NCBI GenBank assembly: GCA_016234115.1
Contig: JACRHD010000059.1
Location: 1-57,857, forward strand
DNA from: Nitrospirota bacterium
GTDB lineage: Bacteria > Nitrospirota > Thermodesulfovibrionia > UBA6902
Reading direction: 5' to 3'
Length of the DNA stretch: 57,857 bases
Part shown: positions 3,533 through 49,968 of the stretch, piece by piece
Layout: each line of letters begins with the position of its first letter
How positions within the stretch are numbered: position 1 is the stretch's first letter
Position numbers and translations under genes: made by a program
The notes under the pieces: model-generated
Database searches by the model: none
Told to the model about the DNA's origin: nothing
The model's input: only the letters and a program-made list of their open reading frames with translations

Positions 3533-4279
3533 ATGCCGGCCCTGTCTCTGATAAAAGAAAAGAGCATACCCCTGATAATCTGTTCAAGCAAGACCCTGCC
3601 GGAGATAGAACATTACAGGAAGAAGCTTTACAATCTCCATCCCTTCATTTCTGAAAACGGGGGCGGGGTCTTCATTCCAAAAGAATATTTCAGATTTCAG
3701 ATTTCAGATTTCAGATTTGAAATTGAAGAAAAGGGCAAATATCATATCATCAGGCTTGGAGCAAAGTATCCCGACCTGAGAAGGGCCGTGCAGGACCTCC
3801 GCAAAGAAGGCTTCAGCGTAAAAGGATTCGGAGACATGACTGTTGAAGAAATCTCCGCCCTGACCGGACTCGGCATAGAAGAGGCGGAGATGGCAAAGGA
3901 GAGGGACTTTGATGAGCCGTTTATATTTCCAGAGGCAACTTATGAATTGCCCCTGCTTTTGGATGCGATCAGGAAGAAAGGCTTCAAACATACTCAGGGA
4001 AAGTTTCACCACCTCCTCGGCAACAGTGATAAAGGGAAGGCGGTATCAATTCTCATTGAGTTATACAAAAAAGAATCCGGTGAAATCACGACTGCCGCCG
4101 TCGGCGACAGCCAAAACGATGTCCCGATGCTCGAAGCAGTCGATCATCCAGTCATCGTTCAGAAGCCCGATGGAAAATTTGATCCGCAAATATACCTCCC
4201 TGATTTAATAAAAGCAGAAGGCGTCGGCCCGGAGGGCTGGAACAAAGCAGTGATTGAGCTTATAAACCTCCGGCCGTAA
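3533..4279 (+). pseudogene. mpgP: Mannosyl-3-phosphoglycerate phosphatase (HAD family), N-terminally truncated
   Basis: The 248 codons carry HAD motif II (CSSK, residues 17-20), FISENGG (38-44), a lysine motif III region (DKGK, about 167-170) and motif IV GDSQND (191-196). These match mannosyl-3-phosphoglycerate phosphatase, which dephosphorylates mannosyl- or glucosyl-phosphoglycerate to the compatible solute. Recognisable homology begins at about 3521, four codons before the ATG. The first 20-30 residues of the family, including the DxDGT nucleophile of motif I, are gone and replaced by antisense NhaD sequence. Without the nucleophilic aspartate the protein should be inactive. Four ATTTCAG units lie inside the frame at 3687-3714. 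It is head-to-head with the truncated synthase of the same pathway. Confidence 0.7.
3687..3721 (+). repeat. Heptanucleotide array (ATTTCAG x4) inside a coding frame
   Basis: Four perfect ATTTCAG units (3687-3714) are followed by a variant ATTTGAA. They encode FRFQISDFRF in the phosphatase fragment. Three extra units add exactly 21 bases, so the frame is kept. Similar 7-bp arrays occur between ribosomal genes at 48387-48424 and 49565-49598. Confidence 0.8.
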
Positions 4280-20298: not shown

Positions 20299-22050
20299 TC
20301 ATTTTTTCACAAATATATATGTCTTCATCCACTCATCCGAAGACGCCTGCGTCCGGAACCAGTGATGCGGAAAGTCCCGGTGAAGCTCGGGTATGTTGTT
20401 CACCGCGTAATCGACGACCGGGAAAGATATCTCTTCATACGGGGAGCCCTGAATCAGGCCTGAAAATACGGTCTTGAAATTTTCCCAGTCCTTTCGATAC
20501 ATAATTACGTCGGGCCGGACATTCGCGTCCCTTTGCAGATTGTTTCCCGTAAACCCGATTGTGGTCCTGGCATCGAGGTAGTACATAAAGGACGTCTCCT
20601 CATAATTCGTGGCAATAACGAGTCCGTCCGTCTTTCCGTATTTCGCCCGGATATAAGGGATGGCATGGTCCAGCGGCCCCTGGTACGGGTGGGTCAATTC
20701 ATAGATATGGCCTCTGAGAAACGGCAGGTTATTAGAGATGTGAAAGGCGGCAAAGGCGATGAGTATGATGACCAGCGCCTTCCTGTAATAAACCGCAACC
20801 CCCGACCGAAGCTGAGAGGTAATATTGAAGAGCACCGCCGCATCCATAATGATGATGAGCGTCAGCACCGGCTGCAGGGGAATAAAATACCTCGTGAAAA
20901 GGGGATTGGGTATCCTTGGTATCGCAAAAAAATAGACGATAAATACCGTGGACAAAAAGGCGGAGAAGACCACCCTGGGCATATCAAGGACATATGCCTT
21001 CTTATCGGACACATATCCTGTCAGGACAGCCGTCAGGAGCAGCGCTTTTAAAAAAATTGCCGCAAGGACAAGGTCGGATGACATAAAAAAGCCCCATATG
21101 AAGGAGAGATTATCCAGATACATGCCTGCGGCGTCCGTCTTAAATCCCAAGGCATAGTATTCAGAGAGTTTTTCCGAAATATTAAAGACGTCAAAGAAAA
21201 GCATCAGGGGATAAACCGGTATCAGCGTCAGGAGGCAAGGCAGCATGTTCCGCGCATAATGACGGAACGGGCCGTCTCCGGCGCTCCTCAGCAGCAGATG
21301 AATGACGAGAGAGCCTGATTCAAAAAGAGATATGGCCGCCATAAACACGAAATACGCAGGGGAAAATGTAATGTAAAGAAAAAACAGCGAGACGGGCATA
21401 ATAACAAGATAACCAGGATATCGCGTCTCTTTCAGTATCCGGAATCTCGCGTAGACAAAAATAATGAAGGAGGACAAGAACACGGTCACGGCGTAATATC
21501 TCGCGTCCCTCAAGTGCAGCGTTAGAGGCACAGAAAGGATTTCGATTAATATAAAGAGCGCCAGGAACCGTGTCTTCGAATATCCGGAATAAAAAAAACG
21601 GGTCCCAAGCAGCGCGGCCCCAAAAAGGCCCGCGAGCCCGAGCGCGGCAAATACCGTTCTTATGATCCCGGTCCTGACGAAGAAATCATCGCTCATTGCC
21701 GCCAGCCTGACCCCGAGGGCCGCAATATAATACTGCCCCCAGCCGGCGCCGCCGACATAGGCGTCTGTCTTTCTGTCAATGCCCAGCGACTTGTCCCCCG
21801 GATACTGGAGGTCATAAAATACGTTCTTTCCGTCATGCACCTTCGGATAACCGAACTGCAGCACCCTCACGCCCCCCATCACTGTCATGCCTTCATCAGC
21901 CCAGAAGAGAGGATAGGAGATGTTCTTGAAGATACTTATCGCCAGCAGAAAAGAAAGAAGAAAGACGAGGGCGGTCATCAACTTTCCCCCGGTCTTTGCA
22001 TTGAAATATCCTTCAGAAGTTTTGAACATGACGGTCTTCTCCGGTCTCAC
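20299..22050 (-). CDS. GT-C-type membrane glycosyltransferase-like protein
   Basis: A 583-residue protein with about eleven membrane helices and a C-terminal outside domain (about 470-583). The first loop holds YPLFWADEGMTVMGG, placing an Asp-Glu pair where ArnT/PMT-type GT-C enzymes have their catalytic acid. HLRDARYYAVT further on is a motif seen in that superfamily (often LxRDARPYAL). No TPR repeats follow. The GTG at 22050 overlaps the preceding stop as GTGA. An ATG at 22029 with GGAG nine bases upstream is an alternative start. Donor probably a polyprenyl-phosphate sugar, acceptor unknown. It lies between two TMTC-like genes and the GT2 gene. Confidence 0.75.
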   Translation of the reverse strand: MRPEKTVMFKTSEGYFNAKTGGKLMTALVFLLSFLLAISIFKNISYPLFWADEGMTVMGGVRVLQFGYPKVHDGKNVFYDLQYPGDKSLGIDRKTDAYVGGAGWGQYYIAALGVRLAAMSDDFFVRTGIIRTVFAALGLAGLFGAALLGTRFFYSGYSKTRFLALFILIEILSVPLTLHLRDARYYAVTVFLSSFIIFVYARFRILKETRYPGYLVIMPVSLFFLYITFSPAYFVFMAAISLFESGSLVIHLLLRSAGDGPFRHYARNMLPCLLTLIPVYPLMLFFDVFNISEKLSEYYALGFKTDAAGMYLDNLSFIWGFFMSSDLVLAAIFLKALLLTAVLTGYVSDKKAYVLDMPRVVFSAFLSTVFIVYFFAIPRIPNPLFTRYFIPLQPVLTLIIIMDAAVLFNITSQLRSGVAVYYRKALVIILIAFAAFHISNNLPFLRGHIYELTHPYQGPLDHAIPYIRAKYGKTDGLVIATNYEETSFMYYLDARTTIGFTGNNLQRDANVRPDVIMYRKDWENFKTVFSGLIQGSPYEEISFPVVDYAVNNIPELHRDFPHHWFRTQASSDEWMKTYIFVKK

Positions 22051-24118
22051 CGGATATTTCTCAACTTTGCGCAGCCCTCCACGCTGCCCAGGGAACAGGC
22101 CTTGCGGAAGTCTGCCTCCGCCCTGCTCATATCGCCCTTCTTCGCGTACACATTTCCACGGCCCCTGTATGCTTCGGGGTCCCGCGGACTGAGTTCCGCG
22201 AACCTCGAATAGGCGTTCAGCGCGTCGTCAAGCCGTCCAAGGGAGGCGCAGGCCGCGCCCAGGCCGTAAAAAGCCGCGCCGTCATAGGGATTCAGGGTAA
22301 CGGCTTTCAGATAGACTTCAGCCGCCTCGGCGAACCGGCCCAGTTTTCTCAAGGCGTGGCCGAGATTCGAATACACGACACCGTTGCCGGGGTCCAGCGC
22401 AATTGCCTTCCTGAAATTGTCGATGGCCCTGTCAAGCCGGCCCGTGACCGCATATGCCGTTGCGAGATTGGAATAAGCAAAATAGTTGCCGGGACTCAGT
22501 GAGACGGCCCGTTCATACATGTCTATGGCTTTGTCATAACGGCCCTTTTCGTAATAGGCGATTCCGAGGTTATTATACACTTTCGGTGAATCAGGGTTCT
22601 TTCTCGCCACGTCCTCCCATAGACGGACCTTGTCCGTCCAGAGTGAATTCCGCGCATACGTAGCGTAAGAGAGCGTCAGGATGATCACAAGAAAAGCGGT
22701 AAAGGGTATCTTTAATGACATGCCGCGGGGCCTCCAGAGCAGGGATGCGCAGCCCGCAGATGCAAGGAAAAAACCGGCTGATGGGAGATAGACCCTGTAT
22801 TCATCTATCACCATGGCAAGAGGAATGACGCTCGATTCGACCGAGAGCGTTATAAAGAACCACAGGATGCCGAAGGCGACAAGGCGCAAAGGGCCTATGG
22901 CCCAGGGCATAGAGCGCAAAGCAGAGGGTCCTTCACCATGCTCTATGCTCTTTGCTCTATGCTCTATGCTCTTTGCGCTACGCGTCTTATAGACCAGATA
23001 CACCGCAGTCCCGAAAAGGGCCGACAGGACCAGGAAAGACAGCAATACCGGCAGTTCAAAAAGCGAATTGTATATGGGGTAATCATAGACGACATTCTGG
23101 TTTACAGGGCAAAGAAGAAGCCGAAGGTATGTGACGATCACCCTGAACTGGGTAAAAAAGTATTCCGTGCCCGACAGGTTTTCATAACCGAGCGCAGCAG
23201 GCTCCGTCATAGGTTTCATTGTTTCCCCGAGAGACCCTTCAATTTGCATAATCGAGACAGGAATGATCAGCATGGTGAGCAGAAACGGCGCAAGCCGCAA
23301 CAGCCTGCGTCTGAGCGCCCCGGTGAAAAACAGAAATTCATAAAGCGTTATCACGACCGGCAGGGTGAACGCATTCTCCTTGGTCTTCATGGCCAGGACT
23401 GCAGCGAGCAAGGAGCAAAGGGCATAGAGCAGGGAACGCCTACTGCCTTTTGCGCCTTGCACTATGCCCTCTGCCCTGTGCGATTCTAATCTCGCTTTGA
23501 TATACAAAACCAGCGAAAGCAGATAGAACATACTTACAAGCGAAGTAAGCCTCTGAAAGACATAAGTCACCGCCTCGGTCTGCACCGGATGGGAGACAAA
23601 CAGAAGCGCGACCGCAAGGGCAAGGAACTGCGTATGGGGCATAGGGCAGGGAACATAGGACTCTTCGTATGTTGCACTCTGCGCTATGCTCTTTGCGCTT
23701 TGCCCCTTGCCCCTTGCCCCTCAAAATACGGTGTCCTCAAAGTCAGCAGGACCATGAAGTATACAAGTACGGCATTGGTTATATGGATAGCGAGATTGAC
23801 CACATGATATCCCGTAACGTCAAACCCGTGAAGCCTGTAGTTGAGGGCAAAGGTGAGATAACCTATATAGCGGTTTTTAAATGAGTAGGGGTTCATTCCC
23901 GGCACAGAAGAAGGGTCCATAAAGCTGGAAAGGTCCCTGACGGAAAGGTTGTCGACAATATACACCGCTTCGTCCCACTGAAACGGGCTGTGGAATGTGT
24001 TTGAATAGACGATAAGCCCCAGGACTGCAATAAGCAACAGGTGAATGACCGGTTTACTGATCAGGCCGGCGCCCCCCCGGCCCCTTGAAACCCTGGACCC
24101 CTGGACCCCGTATTTCAT
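22047..24118 (-). CDS. TMTC-like membrane-TPR protein, frameshifted in a 7-bp repeat
   Basis: The first part (24118 to a TAG ending at 23684) encodes KPVIHLLLIAVLG, FQWDEAVYI and HITNAVLVYFMVLLTLRTPYF. The rest (frame open from about 23725, first ATG 23642, to 22047) encodes HPVQTEAVTYVFQR, further helices and about five TPRs. Together they align end to end with the intact gene at 24115-26178. The break lies in three copies of GGGGCAA (plus strand 23700-23720), where the paralogue has four units. One more 7-bp unit would restore a single frame of about 690 codons. Start 24118 is chosen because its ATGA overlaps the upstream stop. Either a phase-variable gene or a recent pseudogene. The loops near residues 190 and 300 are encoded by other repeats. 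Confidence 0.75.
22938..22988 (-). repeat. In-frame 7-bp repeats (GCTCTAT/GCTCTTT) in the frameshifted TMTC-like gene
   Basis: On the plus strand the units read GCTCTAT, GCTCTTT, GCTCTAT, GCTCTAT, GCTCTTT and then degenerate copies. They encode KSIEHRAKSIEHGEG on the minus strand. The same loop of the paralogue has related units at 25024-25093. Confidence 0.8.
23700..23720 (-). repeat. Heptanucleotide array (TTGCCCC x3) at the frameshift
   Basis: Three perfect TTGCCCC units (GGGGCAA on the coding strand) lie where the two halves of the TMTC-like gene change frame. A change by one 7-bp unit shifts the frame by one base, which is what is needed to join them. The paralogue has four units at 25756-25783. 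Confidence 0.85.
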
Positions 24119-26178
24119 CGGAACCGGCCGCTTCTCAGATACTCGCAACTTTCCCTGCTGCCCAGGGAGCAGGATTTTTGGAAGTCCGCGAGCGCCCTGT
24201 TCAAGTCGCCCTTATCAGCATACACAACCCCGCGGTTTCTGAACGCTTCGGGATTGTACGGGCTGATCTCCGCAAATCTTGAATAGGCGGCAAGGGCGTC
24301 GTCGAGACGGCCGAGTCTCACATATGCCGTGCCGAGTCCGTGATAGGCGCTGCTGCTGTTAGGGTCGATCTCAATTGCCCTGATATGGTTCTCCACAGCT
24401 TTATCCGGCCGGCCGGTTTGATTGAATGCGCGGCCCAGATTGATATACGCGATGCTGTTTTTCGGGTCCAGGGCGACGGCCTGGGTAAACGCCCCGATAG
24501 CCTTATCGACCCGGCCTGTCGCAGCGTAAGCGACCCCAAGATTTACATAGGCCGTTCGATAGGAGGGATACAGCGAGATGCAGTACTCATACGCTGCAAT
24601 CGCCTTTTCGTACTGCCCTTTTTCACTATAGGCGATCCCAAGATTATTATACCCTCTCGGTGAGCCCGGGCTCTTGCTAACTGCATCCTCCCACAGGCTT
24701 ACCCTGTCGCCCCACAAAGAATTCCTTGCGTAGGTGGCGGACGCAAGAACGAGTATGATCGTCCCGAAAACAACGACGGCAACCTTCTGTCTCTGCGGGG
24801 AAGCGACGGGGAAGCTCTGAAAAAGCAGCAGTACGCCGCTGACCAGGGCCAGAAAAAAACCTGCCGAGGGCAGGTATACCCTGTACTCATTAATTACCAT
24901 AGGTATCGGGATAACGCTCGATTCGACCGAGAGCGTTATGAAAAACCAGAGGATGCCGAATGCCGCAAGGCGCAAAAGGCATAGGGCACAGGGCATAGAG
25001 CGCAGGGCAGAGGGTCCTTCGCCATGCTCTTTGCTCTGTGCTCTTTGCTCTGTGCTCTTTGCGCCATGCGCTATGCTCTTTGCCCTATGCGTCTTGTAAA
25101 TCAGATACACCGCAGTCCCGAAAAGCGCCGACAGGACCAGGAAAGACAGCAATACCGGGGGGGTGAAAAAAGACCGGTAGACGGGGTAATCATAGTTGAT
25201 GTTCTGGCTTACCGGCAAAAAGATAAGTCTTATATAAGTGATGACCACCCTGAACTGGGTTAACAGATATTCTGTCCCGGAAAGCTTCCGGTAGCCGAGC
25301 GACGCGGGGTCTTTCATCTGGCCCATTATCTCCCCTGCGCTGTCCCCGGATTCCATAGTGATTATCGTCAGAGGCACGATCAGCATGGTGAGCAGAAACG
25401 GCACAAGCCGCAGCAGCCTGCGTCTGAACGCCCCGGTGAAAAACAGAAATTCATAAAGCGTTATCACGACCGGCAGGGTGAACGCATTCTCCTTGGTCTT
25501 CATGGCCAGGACTGCGGAAATAAGGGACAGAACATAAAAGACAGAGTTGGGAGTTAAGAGTTTAGTTGTTTGAATTTTGAATCTTGAATCTTGAATCTCT
25601 TCCTGCCCCTTGACTCTGCCTTTGATATAGAGCGCCAGCGACAACAGATAGAACAAGCCGACAAGGGAAGCAAACCTCTGAAAGACATAAGTCACCGCCT
25701 CGGTCTGCACCGGATGCGCGACAAAGAGCAATGCAACGGCAAGCGGGAAAAACCCCTGCCCCTTGCCCCTTGCCCCTTGCCCCTCAAAATACGGCGTCCT
25801 CAAAGTCAGCAGGACCATGAAGTATACAAGTATGGCATTGGTTATATGAATGGCGAGATTGACCACATGATATCCCGTAACGTCAAACCCGTGAAGCCTG
25901 TAGTTGAGGGCAAAGGTGAGATAACCTATGTAGCGCGATATCAGGGCGTCATCCAGCAAATCCTCGGCACGCGAGGGATGAAGAAAGTAGTCGAAATTCA
26001 TGATAAAGGGGTTCTTCACGATATAGTCGGCCTCGTCCCACTGAAAAGGGCCGTTGAAAGTATTGGAGTAGGCCAGGAGGCCGAGAAGTCCGATCATGAA
26101 AAGATGTACGGCCGGTTTATATAACAGGCGGCGCTGCCCGGTCTGCGGCGTCCGTTCATTCTTTGAAGCCTGGCCCAT
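24115..26178 (-). CDS. TMTC-like membrane glycosyltransferase with TPR domain (intact paralogue)
   Basis: A 687-residue protein. The membrane part has about ten helices (20-480), a first-loop FQWDEADYI acidic motif and HPVQTEAVTYVFQRFASL, which matches the conserved TMTC loop. About five TPRs follow (500-680; RGYNNLGIAYSEKGQ, SAYHGLGTAYVRLGR). TMTC proteins in animals O-mannosylate cadherin-type domains using dolichyl-phosphate mannose. In bacteria the family is common but unassigned. Three loops are built from short repeats: GQGARGKGQG near residue 130, EIQDSRFKIQTTKLL near 190, and AKSIAHGAKSTEQRAQS near 360. A candidate promoter (26184-26213) places the RNA start at or near the ATG, and no ribosome binding site is present. 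First gene of the eight-gene minus-strand run. Confidence 0.82.
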   Translation of the reverse strand: MGQASKNERTPQTGQRRLLYKPAVHLFMIGLLGLLAYSNTFNGPFQWDEADYIVKNPFIMNFDYFLHPSRAEDLLDDALISRYIGYLTFALNYRLHGFDVTGYHVVNLAIHITNAILVYFMVLLTLRTPYFEGQGARGKGQGFFPLAVALLFVAHPVQTEAVTYVFQRFASLVGLFYLLSLALYIKGRVKGQEEIQDSRFKIQTTKLLTPNSVFYVLSLISAVLAMKTKENAFTLPVVITLYEFLFFTGAFRRRLLRLVPFLLTMLIVPLTIITMESGDSAGEIMGQMKDPASLGYRKLSGTEYLLTQFRVVITYIRLIFLPVSQNINYDYPVYRSFFTPPVLLSFLVLSALFGTAVYLIYKTHRAKSIAHGAKSTEQRAQSKEHGEGPSALRSMPCALCLLRLAAFGILWFFITLSVESSVIPIPMVINEYRVYLPSAGFFLALVSGVLLLFQSFPVASPQRQKVAVVVFGTIILVLASATYARNSLWGDRVSLWEDAVSKSPGSPRGYNNLGIAYSEKGQYEKAIAAYEYCISLYPSYRTAYVNLGVAYAATGRVDKAIGAFTQAVALDPKNSIAYINLGRAFNQTGRPDKAVENHIRAIEIDPNSSSAYHGLGTAYVRLGRLDDALAAYSRFAEISPYNPEAFRNRGVVYADKGDLNRALADFQKSCSLGSRESCEYLRSGRFR
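25024..25093 (-). repeat. In-frame 7-bp repeats in the intact TMTC-like gene
   Basis: Plus-strand units GCTCTTT, GCTCTGT, GCTCTTT, GCTCTGT, GCTCTTT and degenerate neighbours encode a Lys/Ser/Glu/Gln-rich loop. Unit order and number differ from those at the same place in the frameshifted paralogue (22938-22988), showing independent change since duplication. Confidence 0.8.
25756..25783 (-). repeat. Heptanucleotide array (four units) in the intact TMTC-like gene
   Basis: CTGCCCC followed by three TTGCCCC units, encoding GQGARGKGQG on the minus strand and keeping the reading frame open. It corresponds to the three-unit array at 23700-23720. Confidence 0.85.
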
Positions 26179-33137: not shown

Positions 33138-33343
33138 AAAAAAAGGGGCAAGGGTCAGGGGGCAAGGGTCAAGGGAAAGACGTAGGGGCGACACGGCTGG
33201 TCGCCCGTACAGAAAGACACACACCGGGCGTAAAGGAGAGGCTGCCGAGGAATAAAAAAACGGCGATCAGCAATCAGCGAACAGCAGTCAGCCGAGGCAG
33301 TCTGTTTTTGAGCTGACCCCTGAAAGCTGATTGCTGAACGCCG
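33138..33343. repeat. Three repeat families in one gene gap
   Basis: The gap between 33095 and 33431 holds no gene. It contains GGGGCAAGGGTCAGGGGGCA (from about 33147), related to the GGGGCAA arrays in the TMTC-like genes. It also holds the palindrome GTAGGGGCGACACGGCTGGTCGCCCGTAC (29 bases, 33182-33210; arms GTAGGGGCGAC and GTCGCCCGTAC, loop ACGGCTG), and an inverted repeat with ATCAGCAATCAGC and GCTGATTGCTGAACGCCG (33261-33343), like the one at 7570-7659. Confidence 0.7.
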
Positions 33344-49564: not shown

Positions 49565-49598
49565 AAATTTGAAATTTGAAATTTGAAATTTGAAATTT
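49565..49598. repeat. AAATTTG heptanucleotide array between rpsE and rplR
   Basis: Nearly five perfect AAATTTG units. It is the clearest 7-bp array in the ribosomal operon. The sequence is self-complementary in period, so it can also form a weak stem. Confidence 0.9.
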
Positions 49599-49602
49599 AA
49601 AA

Positions 49603-49968
49603 TCAAAATTCCAGGCCGCCTTCCCTCGCCGCCTCCGCCAATGCCTTGACCCTTCCGTGGTAAAGATATCCGCTCCTGTCGAACACAACCTTGCGGATCC
49701 CTTTCCCCGTCGCCCTGCCGGCAATTAATACGCCGACCATTTTCGCGGCGTCCTTATTGCCGCCTGTCTTTATCTTCCCTTTCATCTCCTTGTCGTTGCT
49801 CGAAGCGGAAACAAGGGTCTTGCCCGCGTAATCGTCAATTATCTGCGCGTATATATGGTTAAGACTCTTGAATACATTCAACCTCGGCTTTTCCGGCGTG
49901 CCTACGACCTTCTTCCTCACTCTTGAATGTCTGAGTTGCCTTTTTTCTTCTTTCGTGAATGCGCTCAA
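49603..49968 (-). CDS. rplR: 50S ribosomal protein L18
   Basis: A 121-residue L18 ([40 protein letters not shown]) of normal length. It binds 5S rRNA together with L5 and so fixes the central protuberance. It lies 63 bases after rplF, in a gap filled by a GTAGGGGCG palindrome, and is followed by a 7-bp array. Confidence 0.97.

Follow-up and report, generated by a model that had tools for sequence, protein, structure and literature searches.

The window, a stretch of 57,857 nucleotides, carries on its minus strand two paralogous genes arranged in tandem, each encoding a multi-pass membrane half followed by TPRs; one is intact and the other is broken into two open frames. The coordinates of these genes and of the heptad arrays in the window are given in Table 1. 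The start codon of the broken copy (ATG 24118) overlaps the stop of the intact paralogue in the tetranucleotide ATGA (window 24115–24118), so the two genes may be translationally coupled. The membrane (N-terminal) half had no Pfam or NCBIfam match, the sole matches to these collections being the C-terminal TPRs. The gene had been proposed to encode a glycosyltransferase, but a glycosyltransferase fold was not confirmed, TPR proteins dominating the results of a fold search.

Table 1. Paralogous genes and heptad arrays located in the window.
Feature	Position	Strand	Description
Broken copy, upstream half	23684..24118	-	ORF from ATG 24118 to stop 23684
Broken copy, downstream open frame	22047..23720	-	557 codons stop to stop; first ATG 23642
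Intact paralogue	24115..26178	-	multi-pass membrane protein with C-terminal TPRs, 687 aa
Broken copy, array 1	23629..23720	-	13 heptads in perfect 7-nt register; contains the frame break
Broken copy, array 2	23400..23486 (about)	-	inverted pair, in frame
Broken copy, array 3	22886..22985 (about)	-	inverted pair, in frame
Intact copy, array 1	25750..25784	-	(GGGGCAA)3GGGGCAG, in frame
Intact copy, array 2	25540..25606	-	GATTCAA/AACTC-type units, in frame
Intact copy, array 3	24967..25095	-	GAGCATA-type inverted pair, in frame
Array (ATTTCAG)4.6	3687..3718	+	in frame within ORF 3533-4279
Intergenic heptad array	33143..33175	+	GGGGCAA/GGGTCAA units
Array (AAATTTG)5.6	49565..49603	.	at the end of one gene of the ribosomal protein cluster

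The original prediction held that the gene lies in two frames meeting in three GGGGCAA units, and this was borne out. The frames of the broken copy overlap at 23700–23720, within (GGGGCAA)3, and its product stops after approximately 144 residues. The proposed repair, the addition of one 7-bp unit, does join the frames into one of full length, as would every other change in length equal to +1 modulo 3. The description of the array as three units long was correct only at the frame overlap, since the whole array comprises 13 heptads, of which the first three alone are GGGGCAA, followed by GCGCAAA/GAGCATA-type units and then by reverse-type units such as ATGCCCC. The lag-7 identity of this array was 0.61, compared with 0.27 at other lags, and the window contained 10 occurrences of GGGGCAAGGGGCAA with up to two mismatches, where 0.89 were expected. 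Hence, the heptad array is not a product of chance. Programmed frameshifting at the frame overlap was considered and set aside, as no canonical slippery heptamer was seen on inspection by eye.

Beyond the break, no stops or frameshifts were found in the other ~530 codons of the broken copy. The changes private to this copy fell at third positions in 8 of 12 cases within highly identical blocks and in 137 of 287 elsewhere, a codon-position bias resembling that of the intact copies and as expected for a gene that was used until lately or is still in use. With its frame otherwise open and the third-position bias retained, the broken copy lacks the extra disabling mutations of an old pseudogene. 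These results leave three accounts of the loss: a recent event, a reversible one, or an assembly error. Searches for a close orthologue of the broken copy found none; genome contigs gave relatives at 24–43%, and the best match in the same genus stood at 57%.

Two additional paralogues are present in this genome. The third copy, on contig C30, shares 72% protein identity with the intact gene, and its frame is open with three GGGGCAA units. Three units are therefore not by themselves the off state, and unit number alone does not decide the state of the gene. The intact paralogue had been credited with four units at the same site. It does carry four heptads there, but these are three GGGGCAA and one GGGGCAG, and the length of array 1 in the broken copy departs by 62 nt from that in the intact copy, not by 7, and by 68 nt from that in the C30 copy. 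The fourth copy, on contig C55, is more distant and also open, with heptads and a CCCCCCTTAAATTAAGGGGGG-type palindrome at the three shared loops. In this copy (L062:7280-8180) the palindrome adjoins the heptad runs and at one loop sits between two of them, all in frame. Inserts were observed at the identical three loops in the four paralogues and in homologues from other species, and the predicted structure model placed them in inter-helix loops of lower confidence.

The intact and C30 copies show length differences of 21, 42, and 21 nt within arrays 2 and 3, each equal to three or six heptads; between the broken and intact copies, array 3 differs by 21 nt. Steps of 21 and 42 nt are expected if lengths move by heptads and only in-frame outcomes survive. 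In the broken copy, array 2 is built from a different unit family, and its net length difference is 12 nt. Furthermore, the broken, intact, and C30 copies form a mosaic (window 22047-26178 and L053), with blocks of 93–100% identity that are concentrated near the arrays, some of them flanking array 1. Triple identity was ~81% within 100 nt of the arrays versus 51% elsewhere, and third-position identity was 66% versus 30%. When tested by circular-shift permutation, the identity near the arrays gave p values of 0.018 (100 nt), 0.002 (150 nt), and 0.07 (50 nt). This concentration points to gene conversion, and conversion entering or beginning at the arrays would be the simplest account of the mosaic.

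The heptads are not confined to these paralogues. A census of tandem arrays in 458 kb of sampled stretches of this genome yielded 98 arrays, 51 of which had periods of 7 (36 arrays), 14 (12), or 21 (3), while a single dinucleotide shuffle used as a control yielded nine arrays and none with these periods. Seven is thus the commonest tandem-repeat period in the genome, dispersed at many loci. By location, 28 of the 51 heptad arrays were intergenic, 15 lay at ORF edges, and eight were inside ORFs. An intergenic run at L057:2651-2727 contains 11 mixed GGGGCAA/GGGGCAT units. Folding as DNA of the inverted-pair elements gave hairpins with z scores of -3.7 to -6.0 against shuffles for six of them, the others being weaker; a long inverted pair of GGGCAAA-type heptads at L079:13240-13370 has a very stable predicted hairpin (z -6). 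The array at L080:7321-7356 was considered as a second split gene and rejected, since its ORFs match different families (VWA, TPR) and are probably two genes.

The GGGGCAA unit departs from the heptads overall, as most of the 15 further sites examined in this genome fall inside frames. Runs of (GGGGCAA)3-4 were located inside tgt, hisF, cobB, hemC, nifEN, the gene for 5-formyltetrahydrofolate (5-FTHF) cyclo-ligase, nrdJ, murD, murE, and mqnE, and at the ends of uppS, a penicillin-binding protein gene, and a GATase gene (host genes named by NCBIfam/Pfam). The repeat was in frame at 12 of the 13 internal sites (P = 1.7e-5 under random frame), the sole exception being the broken copy, whose exact run of 22 nt is also the shortest among 18 sites. 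Exact runs of 28–34 nt stand in frame in murD, murE, hemC, and nrdJ, which are essential genes. Comparison with PDB relatives showed that MurD, HisF, and Tgt are clearly extended at the insert sites by segments that those relatives lack, and in the MurD model two of these segments are low-confidence loops (119–133 and 188–197). GGGGCAA repeats contain no stops in any frame on either strand, which, by sequence logic, may explain the frequency of this unit in genes.

The number of units was also restricted. Among exact 7-periodic runs in 857 kb drawn from this genome and others of its genus, 10 had three units, 11 had four, and none had five or more; 24 distinct units were represented, and there was hardly any run of another period. 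A few longer runs, one of them with ten units, came from a sample chosen in part for its closeness to GGGGCAA sites. (GGGGCAA)5 was found in none of 61 genomes, 13 of which contain three or four units, indicating that long slipping arrays fail to accumulate. G-quadruplex formation alone was rejected as the explanation of the four-unit mode because units that are not G-rich also peak at four.

The same sites were compared in other species. At the HemC hairpin turn, 18 of the 41 readable orthologues of the order carry an insert of at least 18 residues, and all 18 inserts are strongly periodic at 7 (lag-7 identity of 0.52–0.73, p at the floor of 0.0005). Loops of 10–11 residues lack this periodicity, and one 16-residue loop is periodic. 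The units vary by species and their number is frequently four: (GGGGCAA)4 in this genome, with GGGGCAG as the last unit, (GGGTCAA)4 in genome G002, and (AAGTCAG)4 in genomes G008 and G030. Nine of 10 genomes from the genus carry heptad inserts in this loop (loci L136-L181), as does every readable genome from the order's other families, but almost no sister genus has them. The MurD loop before GITGTNGKST (loci L107-L126) holds different, unrelated repeat elements in many relatives, including GGCAAGA units, a GGGATTA/CCCCCTA inverted pair, and AAGTCAG units with a GGGGCGATTCATGAATCGCCC palindrome; further relatives have other palindromes, including GGGGCG..CGCCC, or no insert.

The reading we favor, and consider probable, is that the frame break represents one of several paralogues losing its frame at a slowly evolving element of this genome-wide heptad class, rather than a fast switch. 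An element of this class would consist of about four 7-nt units per run, often followed by an inverted second run, and would be found between genes or in frame in permissive loops. In the first loop of the broken copy, the element would have reached a length incompatible with the frame. The break appears recent, perhaps dating from when array 1 was altered by conversion or acquired a second heptad run; any order of events in this array is a guess. The further full-length paralogues in the genome make the loss of the broken copy tolerable and plausible.

A slipped-strand on/off switch, in which 7-nt slippage toggles the protein as in neuO of E. coli K1, was the explanation originally proposed, and we regard it as unlikely. 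Its arithmetic stands, as the unit is not a multiple of three, lies in a coding frame, and a single unit reopens that frame; the array lengths differ in heptad steps between copies, and the broken copy has no other lesion. Nevertheless, the exact run is limited to three units, the C30 copy is open with the same number, exact five-unit runs were absent from the 61 genomes, and essential genes hold longer exact runs in frame. Fast slippage at the array of the broken copy is unlikely because the essential genes with runs of 28–34 nt would then often be knocked out; judged by those runs, an exact array of 22 nt is probably too short for frequent slippage. That 7-nt units can switch is shown by neuO, a phase-variable O-acetyltransferase gene whose (AAGACTC)n array has 3–53 units in 64 genomes, with mixed lengths within one culture (PMC13001214). 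The two cases share a 7-nt unit in coding sequence whose number modulo 3 sets the frame, but neuO has long exact 5' arrays (20 units being the commonest) and measured switching, whereas three exact units within a mixed 13-unit array were found here, in a single genome (PMC13001214).

An assembly or consensus artefact, with near-identical copies mixed or an indel miscalled and the true gene open, seems less probable still. The genome is a draft in 69 contigs, inter-copy blocks of 93–100% identity lie on the flanks of the array, and a single-base error would account for the frame no less well than a 7-nt unit does; however, the array holds a perfect 7-nt register over all 13 units and does not resemble array 1 in the other copies, which makes a simple collapse not obvious. 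That the gene works in two pieces, re-initiation at ATG 23642 (~40 nt past the upstream stop and opening 531 codons) yielding the downstream half and the break being tolerated or functional, is very improbable, as this ATG lies within the repeat and lacks a recognized start context, and every aligned relative is unsplit at that position.

A more tentative proposal concerns the nature of the heptads. They could belong to an undescribed mobile or self-homogenizing DNA element that has roughly four heptads in each arm, is often arranged as an inverted pair, and sits in frame at fixed loops in core proteins throughout a bacterial order; its units would be rewritten together between species, as in HemC, while their number stays near four. 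The palindromic elements of Rickettsia are repeats inserted in frame, and tolerated, in protein-coding genes. In-frame insertion at loops of protein genes is also found here, a likeness of description, and the Rickettsia elements are not known to have a 7-nt periodicity.

Heptads were the most abundant class among long repeats with 5–11 nt units in most genomes of one survey, according to work cited in PMC4679880. The G-rich heptameric repeats GGGAATC of Xanthomonas, with a mode of four units, and GGGGATT of Nostoc also form genome-wide arrays, some in inverted pairs and some intragenic, with four G tracts capable of forming a G-quadruplex; here, in contrast, one genome has many unit sequences, AT-rich ones included, and the GGGGCAA arrays are mostly inside core genes (PMC4692102). 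Geobacter metallireducens has 49 elements of four heptads (GGACCGG), likewise between and within genes, but with a single consensus unit and, in the parts of that report available to us, no description of site occupancy across species (PMC2700814). The TAACTGA repeats of Beggiatoaceae and cyanobacteria are similarly abundant direct heptads (2–6 units per set in the main genome), but have one fixed unit and lie mostly right upstream of start codons (PMC4679880). In our incomplete coverage of the literature, no report was found of heptad elements that occupy conserved sites in core enzymes throughout an order.

The frame break resembles damage to a spare copy more than a dedicated switch, and a frame break of 7 nt need not mean phase variation. 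The real puzzle is the insertions themselves. Heptad repeats are known from several phyla, while their origin and spread are not known. Those described here stand in frame in essential enzymes and in loops shared by many species, with units that change as a block and a sharp ceiling near four. These loop sites therefore provide a natural series for comparing insertion, unit replacement, and loss at one site.
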